Assembly: GCA_002894685.1 (NCBI GenBank)
Contig: NCRC01000021.1
Location: 1 to 62,713 of the forward strand
Direction: 5' to 3'
DNA from: Salinivenus lutea
GTDB lineage: Bacteria > Bacteroidota > Rhodothermia > Rhodothermales > Salinibacteraceae
DNA length: 62,713 nucleotides
Made by a program: the position numbers and the translations under genes. Numbering within the stretch: the stretch's first letter is position 1; each line of letters begins with the position of its first letter. This document shows positions 1,624 through 30,233 of this stretch, piece after piece. The notes under the pieces were generated by a model, which made no database searches, had not been told where the DNA came from, and worked only from the letters and a program-made list of their open reading frames with translations.

Positions 1624-3132
1624 CTACGTCTGCATCGAGCGGGGAAGGAGCGCCCGCTCGATCCCTTCAAGCACCCCCAGCAGCAGAATCGTAAGCACGG
1701 CCGCGGGCACGGTCCCCTCCAGGATGAGGCCGAGGTTGGCCCGCCGGATGCCGGTGAGGATGGGCTGCCCGTAGCCGCCCGCGCCGATGAGCGCCCCCAG
1801 CGTGCCCGCCCCGATGTTGATGATGACCGCAATCTTGATGCCGGCCAGGATGGACCGGGCGGCCAGGGGCAGCTCCACGCGCCACAGCGTGGCCGCGGGC
1901 GAGAGCCCCAGCGCCTCGGCCGATTCCATGAGGGGGCCCGGCAGGTCCTGCAGCCCCGTGTACGTGGTCCACACGATGGGGAGCAGGCTGTACAGGGTGA
2001 GGGCCGTGATGGCGGGCACGCGGCCCAGCCCCAGCAGGGGCACCATCAGGGCGAGCAGGGCCAGCGCGGGAATCGTGTAGATGATGCCCACCACGGCCAG
2101 GATGCCCGGGCCCAGGAGGCGCCGCTTCGCGGCCACGATGCCGAGGGGGAGCCCCAGCAGGACCGCAAGGGCCAGCGACACGCCCACCAGCACGAGGTGG
2201 TCGGCGGTGTAGCGCCGGAGACGCTCGGCGCGCGTGTCGGGGGTAAACGTTGTGGTGAGGCCCAGCGTGCGGTTCACGAAGTTGGCGGCCACCTGGGCCT
2301 CGTCCACCTGATCGATCGCGGAGCGGGCGTTCAGGGCCTGCATCGTGTCGGCCGGGAGCTGCCCCTCCAGGCGCGTAAGGGCGTCGACCGCCGCGGGCGC
2401 CCGGGTTTGCAGGTCGCGCCGGTACAAGAACACCGCCTGGTAGCTGGGAAAGTGGTCCTTCGTATCCTCCAGGACGCGCAGGTCGTAGCGCTCGATCTCG
2501 GCGTCGGTCGAATACAGGTCGATGACGTCCAGTTGGCCGCTCTGGAGGCCCCGGTAGGCAATGTCGTGGTCAATGCCGCGGGCCGACTGCGGAAGGTCGT
2601 AGGCGGCGCGTAGGGAGGGCCACCCGTCGCCGCGATCCATAAACTCGTTCGTGAAGCCGAACGTCAGGTCGGGGTGGCTGCGCAGGTCGCCAATGGTGCG
2701 GATGCCGAGCGAGTCGGCGCGATCGGCGCGCATGCCCAGGGCGTAGGTGTTGTTGAAGCCAAGCGGCTGGCTCATGGCGACGCCGTAGCGGGCCAGCGTA
2801 TCGGCGAGGGTCTCGCGAGTGGCGTCGGTGTCGGCCAGGATTTCGCGGAGGAGGGTGCCCGTGTATTCGGGGTACGCATCGATGTCGCCGCGCCGGAGCG
2901 CCTCCCACAGAAACCGGGAGCCGCCCAGCTCCTCCCGGTGCGTGGCCGGAAGCTCCTCGCTCCGGAGCAGGTGCGTGCCCATCCAGCCCAGGATGACGTT
3001 CTCGGTGAACTTCTTGGAGCCGACGGTGAGGGTGGAGTCCGTCTGTTGGCCGTGGGCCGGGAAAGAGGAACAGAAGATCCCGGCGACGGCGAGGACGAAC
3101 AGGAGTAGACCAAAACCAGAGGACCGGCGCAT
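1624..3132 (-). CDS. OpuC/EgtU-type ABC transporter, substrate-binding and permease domains fused
   Basis: 502 residues. Residues 1-28 are a signal peptide ending near AHGQQ. Residues about 34-295 are an OpuCC/QAT-type substrate-binding domain (VGSKKFTENVILG near the start, then DIDAYPEYTGT). From about 315 to the end is a BPD permease domain with five or six membrane segments and an EAA loop (EALGLSPAATLWRVELPLA). Such systems import quaternary amines such as betaine, choline or carnitine, or ergothioneine. The binding domain precedes the permease, the reverse of well-known fusions such as OpuABC and EgtU, where it follows. It lies 13 bases after its ATPase gene and surely forms one operon with it. 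The substrate cannot be read with certainty. Confidence 0.88.
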   Translation of the reverse strand: MRRSSGFGLLLFVLAVAGIFCSSFPAHGQQTDSTLTVGSKKFTENVILGWMGTHLLRSEELPATHREELGGSRFLWEALRRGDIDAYPEYTGTLLREILADTDATRETLADTLARYGVAMSQPLGFNNTYALGMRADRADSLGIRTIGDLRSHPDLTFGFTNEFMDRGDGWPSLRAAYDLPQSARGIDHDIAYRGLQSGQLDVIDLYSTDAEIERYDLRVLEDTKDHFPSYQAVFLYRRDLQTRAPAAVDALTRLEGQLPADTMQALNARSAIDQVDEAQVAANFVNRTLGLTTTFTPDTRAERLRRYTADHLVLVGVSLALAVLLGLPLGIVAAKRRLLGPGILAVVGIIYTIPALALLALMVPLLGLGRVPAITALTLYSLLPIVWTTYTGLQDLPGPLMESAEALGLSPAATLWRVELPLAARSILAGIKIAVIINIGAGTLGALIGAGGYGQPILTGIRRANLGLILEGTVPAAVLTILLLGVLEGIERALLPRSMQT

Positions 3133-3145
3133 GGAGGCGAAGGGG

Positions 3146-3898
3146 CTATGATCGATCCTCGTGCAAATGCTGCAGCGGGGCCCGCTGCGCCTGGATGAAG
3201 TCGGCGACGAAGGGGGAGGCCGGCTCGTTGACGAGCGTCGCCATCGTGCCGCGCTGCTCTACCTGTCCGCCTCGGAGGAGGACAACGCGATCGCCGAAGA
3301 AGCCCGCCTCGCCAATGTCGTGTGTAACGAAGACCACTGTTTTGCCGAGGCGGCGAAAGATGGCGCGGAGGTCGTCCTGCAGGTCGGCCCGGATCATCGG
3401 GTCGAGGGCGCCGAGGGGCTCGTCGAGCAGCAGCACGTCGGGGTCGAGCATGAGGGCCCGCATGAGGCTTACGCGCTGCCGTTGGCCGCCGGAGAGCTCG
3501 GGCGGGTACTGTTCGAGGCGGTCCGGGTCGAGCTGGACGAGGTCGGTCAGGTCCGCGATGCGGTCGTCAATCCGGTCGGCGGCCCAGCCCAGGTGGCGGG
3601 CCATGAGGGCGACGTTGCCCCGGCCGGTGAGGTGGGGGAAGAGGCCGCCCTCCTGGATCACGTAGCCCATGCGGCGGCGGAGGGAGGGGGCAGTGGCGGC
3701 GGTAAGCGTCGTGTCGCCTACGACGACCGTGCCCGCATCCGGACGGGTGAGCCCGATCATGAGACGGAGCAGGGTGGACTTGCCGCTGCCGGAGGGGCCG
3801 ATGAGTACGGTTGTTTCCTCGGCGGGCACGGACAGAGAGAGGTCCTGCACCGCCACCGCGTCGCCGTAGCGTTTGGAGACGGCGTCGAGGGTGATCAT
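3146..3898 (-). CDS. OpuCA/ProV-like ABC transporter ATP-binding protein
   Basis: 250 residues with all nucleotide-binding motifs: Walker [10 protein letters not shown] at 34-42, Q-loop near 82, signature LSGGQ at 135-139, Walker B ending in DE at 159-160, and a switch histidine in VFVTHD. It powers the fused binding-protein/permease encoded immediately downstream (13-base gap, same strand). It has no C-terminal CBS pair, unlike classical OpuCA/ProV proteins of 360-400 residues, so ionic-strength sensing through CBS domains is not expected. It is first in the operon, divergent from the tRNA gene. Confidence 0.9.
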   Translation of the reverse strand: MITLDAVSKRYGDAVAVQDLSLSVPAEETTVLIGPSGSGKSTLLRLMIGLTRPDAGTVVVGDTTLTAATAPSLRRRMGYVIQEGGLFPHLTGRGNVALMARHLGWAADRIDDRIADLTDLVQLDPDRLEQYPPELSGGQRQRVSLMRALMLDPDVLLLDEPLGALDPMIRADLQDDLRAIFRRLGKTVVFVTHDIGEAGFFGDRVVLLRGGQVEQRGTMATLVNEPASPFVADFIQAQRAPLQHLHEDRS

Positions 3899-24409: not shown

Positions 24410-25726
24410 TTAGAAGTAGATTCCGATGTTCACGTTAAAGGCCGTGCGCCACTCGTTGTCTTCGTTCTCCGCCATCACGCTCGGGAAGGTTGTGTCAAAC
24501 GGCTGATTGAACGGGTGGCCCTTGCTGATATTCAGGTCCGTGTAGATGAACAGCGGACCGGCCGTCGTGAGGAAGCCGATGTCGTGGGAGACGTTGTCAT
24601 TCCAATTCTCCTGGTCAACCTTCGTCACTTGGCTGAAGTCGTAGTACGGCTTGATCTCCGAGATTGGCCCGGCATCGACAGGAATGTGGTATGCCAGGCT
24701 GGATGAGTACACGTCGTGCCGGCTTGCCACGCGGTTAGGCGACGCGTAGGCACCCATTACAACGTAGCTGTCGTCTTGCACCCCCGGAGGATTCAGTTCC
24801 TGCTGGGCAAACTGGAGCTTGGCTTCAAAACCGCCGTAGCGTCCCTGAAGGTGGGCAGCGTACGCGGCGTGCCAGTCCGTTTCACCTGTGGTCCGGTTCA
24901 GAAGCTGACCACGCTGGGCGGAGACACCAAGCTTCGTGAAGCCGAGAGCGCCGTGGTCGAAGGAGTACGCGACCTTGGCATTGAACTGATTCGCCTCAGC
25001 AATATTACGTGTCTCGGCGAGGACACTGCCTCCACCGCCGGTAGGCACGACGTCGTACGAATAACGGGCAGCGTCATTGCCGGCAAAGAAAGTGGTCTGC
25101 TCCGAGTTCATATAGTAGGCCCCCTGAATGTCCCAGCCGTTGGCCTGGTACAGAGCCTTGATGCCGGCGTCGTAGTCGTCCTCGAGACCTACGTAATAGG
25201 TGTTGTTGAAGAACCAGCTGCTGGAGGCATAGGGCTGGATGCCGAAGGGCACCTGGCTCACGCCGACCTGTATCTGTCGGGCGTCGCTGAATTCGTAGCC
25301 GACCCAGCCGTGATGGATGTAGTTGCCACCAAAGGACTCGGGATAAAAGGCCCACTCGGCGTCAAAGATCAGGCTTCCGTAGGAGCCGCTGGCCCCGATT
25401 CGGAACGTGTCAAAGGTAAAGCCCCCGTCTTGTAGCTCATTGTTGATGGTAGGTCCTTCAGAAGGCTTTCCGTAGTCACGGAAAAGCACATTGAAGCGGA
25501 GCGAGCCGTTGATGCTCACGTCGAGCGTGGGCTCATCCTGCTGCGCCGACGCCGCGTCGGACGAGTTCAGCGCGTCGGACAGGTCGAGGCCGGTGTCGTT
25601 GCGGTCCTCGAGGGTAACCGTGTCGGTGCTATCGTCGGCCGGCTCATCGTCGGCCAGGGCCGGGCCGGGGAGAACCAGGCCGGCAGTGAGAAGGAGGGCA
25701 AAGAATGCGGTGTAGTACCGATTCAT
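24410..25726 (-). CDS. Outer-membrane porin (OprO/OprP-like)
   Basis: 438 residues. The start at 25726 gives a signal peptide ending in ALADDE. After a Asp/Ser-rich segment (about 25-65) the chain is a beta-barrel with alternating strands (SINGSLRFNVLFRDYG, IQVGVSQVPFGIQ, LQGRYGGFEAKLQFAQQE) and a C-terminal strand ending in Phe (FNVNIGIYF). It resembles phosphate-selective porin O/P-type 16-strand porins. It lies behind the proVWX genes on the same strand but separated by 246 bases and a hairpin, so it may have its own promoter. I infer possible outer-membrane passage for compatible solutes. Confidence 0.72.
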   Translation of the reverse strand: MNRYYTAFFALLLTAGLVLPGPALADDEPADDSTDTVTLEDRNDTGLDLSDALNSSDAASAQQDEPTLDVSINGSLRFNVLFRDYGKPSEGPTINNELQDGGFTFDTFRIGASGSYGSLIFDAEWAFYPESFGGNYIHHGWVGYEFSDARQIQVGVSQVPFGIQPYASSSWFFNNTYYVGLEDDYDAGIKALYQANGWDIQGAYYMNSEQTTFFAGNDAARYSYDVVPTGGGGSVLAETRNIAEANQFNAKVAYSFDHGALGFTKLGVSAQRGQLLNRTTGETDWHAAYAAHLQGRYGGFEAKLQFAQQELNPPGVQDDSYVVMGAYASPNRVASRHDVYSSSLAYHIPVDAGPISEIKPYYDFSQVTKVDQENWNDNVSHDIGFLTTAGPLFIYTDLNISKGHPFNQPFDTTFPSVMAENEDNEWRTAFNVNIGIYF

Positions 25727-25898
25727 ATGGGCAAAAAGGGGGTTGTGGGAAAGAGTGTACAAGGGATGGCGTAGTGCTACAGACTAGACGGAAGGTGATC
25801 CGTCTGGGCGTGTAGATCAGAGGAAGAGATCGCAACAATGTCGTTGAAGGCCAACGACGTATGCGCAGTACACAAAACAGTCACAGGCGCCCATAACA

Positions 25899-25972: not shown

Positions 25973-26965
25973 TTAGTTGGCCTGGTCGGACGAGTACGTG
26001 GCGTCATCCGGGAGGTACTCAAGCTCCTCTCCCGAGTTGGCGCATTCCTCGGCCTGGTTCATCCACTGCTCCACGTCGTCCTGGTTGTTTTCAATCCACT
26101 GGGCCGCCGCTTCTTCCTTACTCAGGTCGCCCCGGTCGTTGAAGGCGGTCATGAGCGTTCCCACCTGCTCGTCGTTGGCCTCGAACTCCTGGAGGAAGCA
26201 GACGACCTCGCGGGGAAACTTCTCGATGAAGTCGTCGCCCACGATGGTGAAGATGTCCTCGGGCTGGCCCCAGATGTCGACGTTGTCCCCGGTGGTGGCC
26301 CCGGAGACGTACTTGATGTCGAACTGATTCCATTTCCAGTGCGGCTTCCAGGCCGCCACGGCAATCGGCTCCTCATTCTCAATGGCGCCTTCGAGGGCCT
26401 GCCAGTTGGCCGGGCCGCTGGCAGACGAGACGGAGAACGCGTCGTCCATGTCGTAGAGCTCCAGCGTCCGCTGCATCTGGCCGTTGATTGCGGCCCCGGA
26501 CTCGATGCCGTTGAGTGTGCCGTCCAGTCCGTCCCGGTAGTCCATGAGGTCGGGGAAGGTGTCGGCCTCCACGTACGTGGGCACGGCCACGCCAACGGAG
26601 GTGCCACGGTAGGTGTAGCCGAGCTTGTTTGACTGGTCCTTGTTCTCCTCCCACGGCTGCTCGTGGGTCGTGGGGAGCCAGGCTTCGTTGAAGAAGTCGC
26701 GGTCGCCGGAGGCCACCGAGGAGAAGGCGAGCCCGCCGCCCTGCACCTCCCGGACGTCGACCTCCATGTCATAGCGGTTCTCCAGGATTTGCTCCTGCAT
26801 GTAGGTCATGGCGAGGCCTTCAATCCAGTTGACGGTGACCATGTCCATCTGTCGGGAGGTGCCCTGGTCGCCGGAGCCGCCGCAGCCCGCGAGACCCACG
26901 ACTAGAAGGGCGAGGGCCGCGAGGCCGGCGACAAACGAGCGATGCGATGAGGAGTGGGTAATCAT
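25973..26965 (-). CDS. proX: Glycine betaine ABC transporter substrate-binding lipoprotein, copy 1
   Basis: 330 residues. Lipoprotein signal with lipobox LAGC (about residues 25-28), then an OpuAC-type binding domain. Ligand-box aromatic residues are visible in VNWIEGLA, NEAWLPTTH and KPHWKW. It captures glycine betaine or proline betaine in the periplasm and delivers it to ProW. It lies 92 bases downstream of a second proX. The first 80 residues after the signal are almost identical to copy 2 while the rest is only about 60% identical by eye. An acidic C-terminal tail follows the domain. Confidence 0.88.
   Translation of the reverse strand: MITHSSSHRSFVAGLAALALLVVGLAGCGGSGDQGTSRQMDMVTVNWIEGLAMTYMQEQILENRYDMEVDVREVQGGGLAFSSVASGDRDFFNEAWLPTTHEQPWEENKDQSNKLGYTYRGTSVGVAVPTYVEADTFPDLMDYRDGLDGTLNGIESGAAINGQMQRTLELYDMDDAFSVSSASGPANWQALEGAIENEEPIAVAAWKPHWKWNQFDIKYVSGATTGDNVDIWGQPEDIFTIVGDDFIEKFPREVVCFLQEFEANDEQVGTLMTAFNDRGDLSKEEAAAQWIENNQDDVEQWMNQAEECANSGEELEYLPDDATYSSDQAN
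26660..26887 (-). repeat. Near-identical segment shared with second proX (copy A)
   Basis: These 228 bases align without gaps to 27739-27966 with 8 mismatches by my count (about 96% identity). They encode the lipobox Cys to the start of the ligand-box region of the two ProX proteins. Identity falls sharply on the side that encodes the C-terminal two thirds. Confidence 0.85.
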
Positions 26966-27057
26966 AAAGCGTGGAAGGTTGAGTGTAGGAATGCAGTCGA
27001 GAAGGCAGTGCGAGGGGCGGGGGGCGCGCCTGATGGCGCTCCGGCCCCGCGTGGGGG

Positions 27058-28044
27058 CTACGCATCGGAGGACGCCGAGTGCGTAGCGTCGTCCGGCAGG
27101 TATTCAAGGGGGGCGTCGGAGGCAGCGCACTCCTCGGCCTGGCTGATCCACTGGTCCACGTGATCCGGATTGTTGTCGATCCACTGCTGCATGGCCTCCT
27201 CCTGGCTCATGTCGCCCCGGTCCTTAAAGGCGAACATGAGGCTGCCGACCTGCTCGTCGTTGGCTTCAAACTCCTGCAGGAAGCACACGACCTCCCGAGG
27301 GTATCGCTCGATGAAGTCGTTGCCGACAATGGTGAACACATCTTCCGGCGCGCCGAACACGTCGGTCTGGCCGGTCTGGGCCCCTTCGAGGTACTTGAGG
27401 TCGAACTCGCTCCACTTCCAGTGCGGCTGCCAGCCGGTGACGACGATCGGCTCTTCATTGTCGATGGCGGTCTGGAGGGCCTGCCACGTCGCCGGGCCGC
27501 TGGAGGCCACCACCGAAAAGCCCTCGACGTCGTTGTTTTTAAGGATCTGGCGGGCCTGATCGTTCACGTTGGCGCCGGACTCGATGCCGTTGATTTCGCC
27601 GTCAAGCGCCTCGCGAAAGTTGCCGAGCTCCGAAACGTGCTCGATGTCCATGTAGGCGGGCACGGCGAGGCCGGCGGTGGTGCCGCGGTAGGTGTATCCC
27701 AGCTTCTGGAGCTGGTCCTTCTGCTCGCCCCACGGGCCCTCGTGGGTGGTGGGGAGCCAGGCTTCGTTGAAGAAGTCGCGGTCGCCGGAGGCCACCGAGG
27801 AGAAGGCAATGCCGCCGCCCTGCACCTCTCGGACGTCGACCTCCATGTCGTAGCGGTTCTCCAGGATCTGCTCCTGCATGTAGGTCATGGCGAGGCCTTC
27901 GATCCAGTTGACGGTGACCATGTCCATCTGTCGGGAGGTGCCCTGGTCGCCGGAGCCGCCGCAGCCGGCAAGGAGGCCGGTACCGAGAACGGCGAGGGTA
28001 CAGACCGCAACGGCGGTCGAGAGAGAGTTTGTCATTCGTTCCAT
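27058..28044 (-). CDS. proX: Glycine betaine ABC transporter substrate-binding lipoprotein, copy 2
   Basis: 328 residues from the ATG at 28044 (a second ATG at 28035 is possible). Signal with lipobox LAGC, then an OpuAC-type binding domain with the same aromatic ligand-box motifs as copy 1 (VNWIEGLA, NEAWLPTTH, QPHWKW). It is the first proX after proW (142-base gap). The longer frame upstream of 28044 is Arg/Pro-rich and overlaps the end of proW, so it is not used. The two paralogues may differ in affinity or ligand, since residues outside the shared segment have diverged. Confidence 0.88.
   Translation of the reverse strand: MERMTNSLSTAVAVCTLAVLGTGLLAGCGGSGDQGTSRQMDMVTVNWIEGLAMTYMQEQILENRYDMEVDVREVQGGGIAFSSVASGDRDFFNEAWLPTTHEGPWGEQKDQLQKLGYTYRGTTAGLAVPAYMDIEHVSELGNFREALDGEINGIESGANVNDQARQILKNNDVEGFSVVASSGPATWQALQTAIDNEEPIVVTGWQPHWKWSEFDLKYLEGAQTGQTDVFGAPEDVFTIVGNDFIERYPREVVCFLQEFEANDEQVGSLMFAFKDRGDMSQEEAMQQWIDNNPDHVDQWISQAEECAASDAPLEYLPDDATHSASSDA
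27739..27966 (-). repeat. Near-identical segment shared with first proX (copy B)
   Basis: Partner of 26660-26887 at an offset of 1079 bases in direct orientation. A direct repeat of this length could also promote deletion of one proX gene by recombination. Confidence 0.85.
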
Positions 28045-28186: not shown

Positions 28187-29071
28187 TTAGGTGGTTGCCT
28201 GCGACGTCGACGAGCCGGCTTTCTCGCCGGCCGCCTGTGTGATGCGGTCGAGGAAGATGGCCAGGATGACGATGGCGAGGCCGCCCTCAAAGCCGACGCC
28301 GATCCGCAGCTGCTGAATTCCCTCGACGACCGGATCGCCCAGGCCGCCGGCCCCGATGAGCGCGGCAATCACGACCATCGACAGGGCGAGGAGGACCGTC
28401 TGGTTCACGCCCGCCAGGATGGTGGGCAGCGCCATCGGCAGCTCGACCTTAAAGAGCATCTGGCTCGGGGTGGACCCGAAGGACTTCGCCGCCTCGATGG
28501 CTTCCTCCGACACCTGCCGGATGCCGAGGTTGGTCAGGCGCACGCAGGGGGGCGTGGCAAAGATGAAGGTGGCGATGACGCCCGGCACCTGGCCCAGCCC
28601 GAAGAGCACGACGGCGGGGATGAGGTACACGAAGGCCGGCATCGTCTGCATGAAGTCGAGGATGGGGCGCACGATTGCGTCCACCACGTCGTTCTTGGCG
28701 GCCCAGATGCCGACGGGAATCCCGATCAGCAGAGAGAGCAGGGTCGCCGTGGCGACGAGGGCCAGGGTCTGCATGGTGAAGTCCCACAGCCCCATGCCGA
28801 AGGCGATCTCTAGCCCAAAAAGGGCAAATTCGACGTCCTCAAGCAGGGTGAGCCCGATAAGCGAAAAGGTGGCCACGCCCCGGGAGGCCACCCACCACGC
28901 CAGCACGGTAAAGAGGCCAATCATCACCCAGCTGGGAAAGAACAGAAGGGCCTCCTCAAGGCCGGTGATCGTCGCTCCGATGGTGACGGTGATCGCATCG
29001 AACAGCGGCTCGAAGTTGTTCTGGAGCCATTCGATGAGGGCCGCGAAAGCATCGCCAAGGTCCAGTCGCAT
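28187..29071 (-). CDS. proW: Glycine betaine ABC transporter permease
   Basis: 294 residues from the ATG at 29071 (a GTG two codons earlier is possible). Cytoplasmic/periplasmic N-terminal stretch, then about seven membrane helices with the BPD permease EAA loop (EEAIEAAKSFGSTPSQMLFKVELP, read as EA-A-x3-G). It forms the membrane channel of the ProVWX importer. It sits 61 bases after proV and before the two proX genes. The last 20 residues are a Ser/Thr/Ala tail. Confidence 0.92.
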   Translation of the reverse strand: MRLDLGDAFAALIEWLQNNFEPLFDAITVTIGATITGLEEALLFFPSWVMIGLFTVLAWWVASRGVATFSLIGLTLLEDVEFALFGLEIAFGMGLWDFTMQTLALVATATLLSLLIGIPVGIWAAKNDVVDAIVRPILDFMQTMPAFVYLIPAVVLFGLGQVPGVIATFIFATPPCVRLTNLGIRQVSEEAIEAAKSFGSTPSQMLFKVELPMALPTILAGVNQTVLLALSMVVIAALIGAGGLGDPVVEGIQQLRIGVGFEGGLAIVILAIFLDRITQAAGEKAGSSTSQATT

Positions 29072-29132
29072 AGGCACTCAGGCGTCGTCGTTCGAAACGA
29101 TGAGCGTAAGGGGGGAGACGTGCCGGCACCGA

Positions 29133-30233
29133 CTAGGCCACCGCCGCTTCGGGGTCTTCGTCGGCTCGGCCGGCGCGGGCGTCCCGGCGCCGGGCCCCAT
29201 CGGCGTTCTCTACGACCTCCTCCATCACGGCGTCCTGGCTCACAACGCCCTGGAGGGTGCCCTTCGAGTCGCGCACGGCCAGGAGGCCGTCGGTGTCGAG
29301 CAGGATGGGCAGCAACTCGGCGATGGGCGTGTGGGGCGACACCGACGGGCCGTCGGCGGCCACCGTCTCGTCGTCGCGAAGGTCGCGCATGACGGTGCGG
29401 GCGGGGACGATCTTCGTGCGGTCCACGTTCTCGACGAAAGAGCGGACGTACTCGTCGGCGGGCTTGGTGAGAATCTCGGTGGGCGTGCCAATCTGGGCAA
29501 TCTTGCCGTCCTTCATGATGGCAATGCGGTCGCCCATCTTCAGCGCCTCGTCGAGGTCGTGGGTAATGAAGAGGATCGTGCAGGCTGGGTCCCACTGTTC
29601 CTGCAGCTCCAACAGCTCATTCTGCATGTCGGCCCGGATGAGGGGGTCGAGGGCGCTGAAGGCCTCGTCCATCAGCAGGATTTCGGGGTCGTTGACGAGG
29701 GCACGGGCCAGTCCCACGCGCTGCTGCATCCCGCCGCTCAACTCGCTGGTCTGGCTCTCTTCATAGCCGTCGAGCCCCACGAGCTCGAGCGACCGGCGGG
29801 CCTTCTCGCGCCGCTCCGCCTTTTCGATGCCCGCCACCTCCAGGCCGTACTCCACGTTGCCGATGACGCTCCGGTGGGGGAAGAGCCCGAAGTTCTGGAA
29901 GACCATCGACATCTTGGTCCGGCGCAGCTGACGGAGGCGATCATCGTCGAACGCCGTCACCTCCTCGTCGTGCACGCGGACGGTCCCGAAGGTTGGCTCA
30001 ATGAGCCGGTTGATGCAACGCAGCAGGGTCGACTTGCCGCTGCCCGACAGGCCCATCACCACGAAGATTTCTTGCTCCTTCACCTCGAAGGAGGCATCAT
30101 TCACTGCGATGACCGAGCCGGTCTCTTCCTTGACCTCGGCCTTCGACAGGCCCTCCTCGACCGCCAGCCGACGGGCTCGTTCGGGGTCGCCGCCGAAAAT
30201 TTTCCAAACTCCATCTGCCTCGATGACCGCCAT
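29133..30233 (-). CDS. proV: Glycine betaine/proline betaine ABC transporter ATP-binding protein
   Basis: 366 residues. ABC motifs: Walker A GLSGSGKST at 61-69, signature LSGGM at 165-169, Walker B ending in DE at 189-190. Residues about 1-50 have the ProV-type N-terminal extension (KIFGGDPERARRLAVEEGLSK, shortened here). Residues about 285-345 are a CBS-like region (VMRDLRDDE, then TDGLLAVRDSKGTLQGVVS), which in related transporters senses ionic strength or cyclic-di-AMP; only about one and a half CBS units are seen. It is the first gene of proV-proW-proX-proX. A -7-like TAGATTTT lies close to the ATG, too close to be sure. Confidence 0.92.
   Translation of the reverse strand: MAVIEADGVWKIFGGDPERARRLAVEEGLSKAEVKEETGSVIAVNDASFEVKEQEIFVVMGLSGSGKSTLLRCINRLIEPTFGTVRVHDEEVTAFDDDRLRQLRRTKMSMVFQNFGLFPHRSVIGNVEYGLEVAGIEKAERREKARRSLELVGLDGYEESQTSELSGGMQQRVGLARALVNDPEILLMDEAFSALDPLIRADMQNELLELQEQWDPACTILFITHDLDEALKMGDRIAIMKDGKIAQIGTPTEILTKPADEYVRSFVENVDRTKIVPARTVMRDLRDDETVAADGPSVSPHTPIAELLPILLDTDGLLAVRDSKGTLQGVVSQDAVMEEVVENADGARRRDARAGRADEDPEAAVA

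Follow-up and report, generated by a model that had tools for sequence, protein, structure and literature searches.

Among the described systems closest to ours are the bacterial release factors RF1 and RF2. According to the excerpted text of PMC4530459, maximum-likelihood methods gave two independent cases in which conversion was confined to nearly all of domain 3 and ran in opposite directions, while the domains that recognise stop codons stay apart. The duplicate tuf genes of Salmonella are another example, and the excerpt of PMC5485169 describes their conversion as starting effectively anywhere and being bounded by the gene. On the protein side, the precedent is OpuAC of L. lactis (3l6g/3l6h), presented in the excerpted text of PMC2861598 as a class II binding protein with hinge strands centred on Lys404 and Ser508, two in all.

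Here, we describe gene conversion between proX1 and proX2, two tandem genes for substrate-binding lipoproteins in a window of 62,713 nucleotides of Salinivenus lutea (the whole stretch of DNA analysed, contig NCRC01000021.1). That conversion took place, as a first-pass annotation of this DNA had proposed, is to us nearly certain, since it is backed by silent sites, by controls with relatives and by conflicting regional trees. Like RF1 and RF2, these are ancient paralogues in which conversion is limited to a domain of shared function. Unlike these two indispensable release factors, they are tandem binding proteins of a single importer, their homogenised unit is a lobe made of two separate segments, and one direction of conversion is suggested, in one lineage (compared with the excerpted PMC4530459). 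As in tuf, conversion joins bacterial duplicate genes, but the proX tracts end inside the gene (compared with the excerpted PMC5485169). The proteins share PF04069 with L. lactis OpuAC and align with it at the Trp prism, the contact His and both hinges, yet they occur in two or three tandem copies per operon (compared with the excerpted PMC2861598). Our search of the open-licence literature, by title and abstract opening, found no report of lobe-limited conversion in binding proteins. Gene conversion as such is well known, and what is modestly new here is that it affects binding proteins lobe by lobe.

The genes belong to a minus-strand operon for an osmoprotectant importer, in the order proV, proW, proX2, proX1 and a gene for a 450-residue protein. 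The features are, with the limits of the lobes taken from the aligned hinges of L. lactis OpuAC:

29133..30233, minus strand: proV, ATPase of the transporter (TIGR01186, 363 bits against a cut-off of 326.6)
28187..29077, minus strand: proW, permease of the same transporter (PF00528)
27058..28044, minus strand: proX2, proximal copy, open reading frame for the X2-type OpuAC substrate-binding lipoprotein (328 residues; PF04069)
27739..27966, minus strand: conversion patch of proX2, codons 27-102, 8/228 differences from proX1
27346..27678, minus strand: lobe II of proX2, codons 123-233, type-specific, with W205
27136..27345, minus strand: C-terminal part of lobe I of proX2, codons 234-303 (from the C-terminal tree)
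25973..26965, minus strand: proX1, distal copy, open reading frame for the X1-type OpuAC substrate-binding lipoprotein (330 residues; PF04069)
26660..26887, minus strand: conversion patch of proX1, codons 27-102, 8/228 differences from proX2, with the lipobox Gly-Cys, W47, W96 and H101
26261..26599, minus strand: lobe II of proX1, codons 123-235, type-specific, with the third cage Trp, W206
26051..26260, minus strand: C-terminal part of lobe I of proX1, codons 236-305, with an older homogenisation (from the C-terminal tree)
24410..25762, minus strand: open reading frame for the 450-residue protein adjoining the last proX

Both lipoproteins carry a lipobox, seen in the sequence, and both pass the curated cut-off of PF04069 (OpuAC) at 21.2 bits, with 148 bits for proX1 and 163.3 for proX2, the start of the latter being set at MERMTNSL. 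The best subfamily models fell far under their cut-offs: proX1 and proX2 scored 90.5 and 119.6 bits with the choline-binding TIGR03414 (cut-off 379.05) and 31.9 and 26.7 bits with NF008334, the glycine betaine/proline ProX (cut-off 215). The best NCBIfam models of proW are choline and betaine permeases, with scores under cut-off, and proV has a weak CBS match, also under cut-off. The 450-residue protein, which we labelled 'porin', has no Pfam or NCBIfam match. It was matched in 15 of the 17 fetched regions (13 on the contig of the operon, 2 on a separate contig) and is perhaps an outer-membrane channel for the same solutes as the importer. A putative second system of osmoprotectant type lies elsewhere in the window, on the minus strand: a 502-residue frame (1624-3132) matches PF04069 at 2272-3033 and by eye has a permease-like second half, and the frame beside it (3146-3898) reads by eye as a putative ABC ATPase.

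The two patches, of 228 bases each, differ at exactly 8 positions, and these differences are mostly silent, with 7 silent changes and 1 amino-acid change in codons 27-101 by the Nei-Gojobori method. The proteins are identical at 74 of 75 residues of codons 27-101, at 141 of 227 (62%) downstream, which agrees with the roughly 60% first estimated by eye, and at 9 of 25 in the signal peptide. Maximum-likelihood segmentation of the codon alignment returned codons 27-102 as the low-divergence segment, exactly the patch as it was first delimited; in the model with two breakpoints the flanks differ at 40/75 sites before it and 198/678 after it. The description of its contents has to be amended. The lipobox Gly-Cys does start the patch, but the signal peptide (codons 1-26), which had been included, lies outside and is not homogenised. 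Its description as reaching the first ligand loop is too narrow: the patch makes up the N-terminal portion of lobe I and contains two of the three predicted cage Trp together with the contact His.

Silent divergence between the copies is far from uniform along the genes. We call this genome G000, and G013 the genome that we take to be that of Salinivenus iranica CB7, the closest named relative (proX1 99% identical), with X1 and X2 for the two types of proX. The G000 copies differ at 7/50 silent sites in the patch against 85/160 outside, a count that covers the codons after 10 (about 53% elsewhere), and the S. iranica pair at 13/50 against 83/159. Fisher tests of patch against rest gave 1.7e-6 in this genome, 0.0012 in S. 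iranica and 0.0005 for the tandem copies a and b of genome G021. When silent codons were shuffled, none of 3000 replicates reached the best run of this genome (codons 27-163, 12/101 differing); the corresponding result was 13/3000 in G021 and, weakly, 68/3000 in S. iranica. A shuffle of all polymorphic sites gave 0/3000 for the three pairs. We do not rely on it, because it gave 0/3000 also for the orthologue pairs G000_X1/G018_X and G000_X2/G021_b and responds to uneven conservation.

The hinge residues Lys404 and Ser508 of L. lactis OpuAC align with S123 and P235 of proX1, so that lobe I comprises codons 28-122 and 236-305 and lobe II codons 123-235; these limits were fixed before the segmentation result was seen. 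They rest on the alignment to L. lactis OpuAC because the AlphaFold model is of middling quality: its mean pLDDT is 63.9, and most of lobe II stays below 60. The best fold matches of the model are betaine and choline binding proteins (Z 18.7 with 3tmg_B, rmsd 3.9, 211 residues aligned). In G021, the breakpoints between copies a and b fall at 122/123 and 235/236 in every model with at least two breakpoints, and the best-fit breakpoints coincide with both aligned hinge residues. With four breakpoints, the copies differ at 18/249 sites in codons 40-122, at 135/333 in codons 123-235 and at 0/147 in codons 236-284, with a high silent difference (7/10) in codons 102-120. G021, a second species, has its own homogenised tracts in both parts of lobe I. 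Protein identity in the N-terminal part of lobe I, in lobe II and in the C-terminal part of lobe I (lobe I-C) is 94%, 51% and 76% in this genome, and 90%, 50% and 86% in G021. The proposal that the remainder of the two genes evolves apart is thus correct for lobe II, which stays type-specific, but not for lobe I-C, which was homogenised as well, earlier here and recently in G021. Silent divergence between the G000 copies amounts to 0.14 for the patch but reaches 0.62 for lobe I-C and 0.70 for the signal peptide, and the value for lobe I-C indicates that no recent homogenisation occurred there in this genome. Over whole lobes it is 0.36 for lobe I and 0.46 for lobe II, a silent-site pattern that in this genome arises from the N-terminal part of lobe I alone.

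Residues fixed by type occupy 28 of the 111 columns of lobe II, the first and last being codons 123 and 232. The N-terminal part of lobe I has none in its 94 columns and lobe I-C has 1 in 70, which makes 1 of 164 for lobe I as a whole (Fisher 1.8e-11). Because the types had themselves been taken from the lobe II tree, the enrichment there is partly by definition, and it is the near absence from lobe I that is informative. Among all four G000 and G013 sequences, 5 of 226 type-fixed sites fall in the patch.

By alignment, the predicted ligand cage is formed by W47, W96 and W206 (W205 in X2), with H101 as the contact His; W47, W96 and H101 are inside the converted patch. The aligned residues of L. 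lactis OpuAC are Trp 330, 377 and 484 and His 382, where 330 and 377 are numbered from the alignment. The excerpted text of PMC2861598 prints W484 and H392 as ligand residues, the aligned His being chain residue 382 by our count. The backbone contacts G437-V438 of OpuAC (same excerpt) align with A159-I160 in X1 and with N159-V160 in X2, a type-specific difference, and so are A204/T and K207/Q beside the third cage Trp. The conversion, limited as it is to one domain, would locate the difference between tandem osmoprotectant-binding proteins in lobe II, and there in residues 159-160, aligned with contacts of the ligand carboxylate, and in the neighbours of the third cage Trp. That the X1 and X2 proteins prefer different solutes, as the first-pass annotation had suggested, is a fair inference.

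One might argue that the conversion is real and that the lobe pattern is a by-product of homology, lobe II having drifted first by chance without any selection by ligands. On this view recombination works only between stretches that are still alike, and low homology could be enough to halt conversion at lobe II: the longest identical runs between the G000 copies are of 65, 59, 32, 20 and 19 bases, the first three are inside the patch, and no run outside it exceeds 20 bases. Runs of 20 bases are short for efficient recombination. The lobe pattern is absent, moreover, from the tandem copies a and b of G014 and G015 (pN ratios of 0.88, rank 91, and 0.86, rank 85, among 186 pairs; all-site shuffles 91/3000 for G014 and 16/3000 for G015, silent shuffles 809/3000 and 699/3000), and the pattern rests on effectively two independent lineages. 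Chance drift is at odds with three observations. Lobe I is in general little more conserved than lobe II (median pN ratio of lobe I to lobe II 0.89 over the 186 pairs), the lobe II types stay conserved from species to species (pN in codons 121-239 is 0.09-0.13 between orthologues against 0.28-0.31 between types), and the G021 breakpoints fall on both hinges. We regard the by-product of homology as a serious contender, though the less probable one, and we lean slightly towards lobe II being guarded by selection for ligand choice and not by low homology alone.

The reading that we prefer, and consider quite probable as a whole, is that lobe I is made alike by conversion and lobe II stays distinct, probably for the sake of ligand choice. 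On this reading, proX1 and proX2 are long-diverged tandem copies encoding the substrate-binding lipoprotein of one ProVW importer, and homologous recombination between these neighbours has more than once replaced a stretch of one copy by that of the other. Both proteins presumably have to be anchored and to dock on a single permease, and both would need the half of the ligand cage that lobe I provides, so homogenising lobe I might be harmless or useful. In lobe II, conversion would wipe out whatever separates the two in ligand preference or affinity, and might be either selected against or blocked by low homology. The pair can be pictured as a common frame beneath two different lids. It is possible, but rather doubtful, that the tandem class II binding proteins of the whole genus evolve as such a two-part system, with lobe I as the common chassis that repeated conversion keeps alike, lobe II as a set of distinct, long-lived modules choosing ligands, and recombination limits at the two hinge crossings. 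Were this general, natural lobe exchange could alter or preserve the specificity of this fold lobe by lobe. From domain-limited conversion one can read which part of a protein is interchangeable in evolution.

Trees of the different regions, in which we included two pieces of a third G021 copy, conflict. In the patch tree, the four G000 and G013 copies form one clade (96/88), followed by the X1-type gene of G018 (90/85). In the middle tree (codons 121-236) such a clade is rejected (p-AU 4.6e-9): X2 joins G021_b (98/96), and X1 pairs with G018_X (92/91), the two being joined in turn by copy a of G021 (82/86). Hence the patch groups by genome and the middle of the gene by paralogue type, which implies that the X1 and X2 types are older than the species and that the overwriting of their flanks came later. 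X1 and X2 split long before the conversion took place. The tract of codons 27-102 was homogenised before this species separated from S. iranica, since the X1 genes of the two genomes pair within the patch clade (99/95). In the C-terminal tree (codons 237-330) both G000 and G013 types join G018_X (93/99), which we read as an older homogenisation. The G021 copies a and b pair in the C-terminal tree (98/99) and this pair is rejected in the middle (2e-52); they form no supported clade in the patch tree, yet the pair is not rejected there (p-AU 0.487). Both the patch and the C-terminal trees place the two copies near the X1-type G018_X, in a genome that shows only one copy, and we think it reasonably likely that X1 was the donor and X2 the recipient.

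In principle, a mosaic of two trees can be read in either direction: instead of lobe I being overwritten, lobe II, or the whole remainder, could have been imported from a foreign source into one copy after a recent duplication of the entire gene. The silent divergences of the patch, of lobe I-C and of the signal peptide given above imply different ages for tracts within one G000 gene, so a single import event is insufficient, and the import of a single foreign lobe II is rejected on these grounds. Furthermore, the X1 and X2 lineages of lobe II are common to G021 (at a high silent divergence, 0.57 and 0.63 in codons 121-239), and G018_X is related to G000_X1 in both the signal region and lobe II. 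We therefore find a foreign import very unlikely, and return to successive conversions of lobe I.

Strong purifying selection, or an overlapping element, might keep the patch alike in all ProX genes, as the near identity of its residues would allow, but we reject both on the silent sites of relatives and give them next to no weight. The orthologues G000_X1 and G018_X are as diverged in the patch (24/48, 0.51) as outside (74/157, 0.47), showing that the patch is not intrinsically slow. Neither is it slow in general: 20 sequences gave 190 pairs, and for the 186 of these with a silent divergence above 0.25 outside the patch the median ratio of patch to rest is 1.00. The five lowest of these 186 ratios are those of the G000/G013 X1-X2 combinations (0.27, 0.39, 0.51 and 0.51) and of G021 a/b (0.46). 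Neither of the two outcomes that the first-pass annotation had set as refuting its proposal, a uniform silent divergence along the genes and an equally low divergence of the patch among all ProX orthologues, was thus observed. Between orthologues of G000 and G013, silent divergence is higher inside the patch (15/100 with both genes pooled) than outside it (20/321; Fisher 0.011, or 0.063 and 0.084 for the single genes), and this may hint at recombination that went on after their split. A separate later conversion of codons 27-58 in this genome was considered, but the counts are too small for it: there is no type-fixed site there, site 38 groups by genome and site 36 partly so.

An assembly artefact assigning the reads of one copy to the other is extremely improbable. 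One might invoke for it that G021 is broken in its third copy, with a 77-base overlap of contig ends suggestive of a short-read assembly graph, and that its 148-base identical run exceeds this overlap. Against it, 8 sites distinguish the two patches of this genome, and the assembly of S. iranica repeats the pattern with differences private to it; a mis-join could swap flanks but not make two tracts that are near-identical without being identical.

The genome G021 has three tandem types of proX, namely X1, X2 and the type of copy b of G014 and G015, at loci L035 (G021:C111, 8076-10850) and L045 (G021:C55, 1-633), the third copy crossing the two overlapping contigs. Its copies are in the order X1-X2, the opposite of the X2-X1 order in this window. 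The resemblance of the third copy to copy b is weak at best in codons 60-101 (6/33 silent-different codons) and absent in codons 236-270 (16/30).

The order-wide search matched 21 of 114 genomes, all in the family of the window. Among the 20 family genomes with a match, 15 were aligned, and G003, G004, G006, G009 and G010, being distant or fragmentary, were left out. Three fragments were kept from the pair table and the set of polymorphic sites, i.e. the two third-copy pieces of G021 and a 124-residue remnant in G012. One intact operon copy is found in G018, G019 and G020, where it is X1-like, and in G011, G016, G022 and G001, where it is of another type; hence, neither type is indispensable in the family. 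A decayed proX fragment lies on another contig of G020. The G012 remnant of a second proX (L039, 7298-7663) lies between the intact copy and a barrel-like gene, a case in which the number of proX copies appears to decay in place.

Across the phylum, we searched PF04069 in 394 evenly drawn genomes, of which 87 matched, and adjacent stand-alone copies, as we judged adjacency from the coordinates, occurred in G000, G014 and G015 only. By our count, 21 phylum genomes listed have the halves of OpuAC swapped in one long frame (e.g. G232:C93:3614-4465), with profile positions of about 113-257 ahead of 2-113, as in the permuted OpuAC of B. subtilis.
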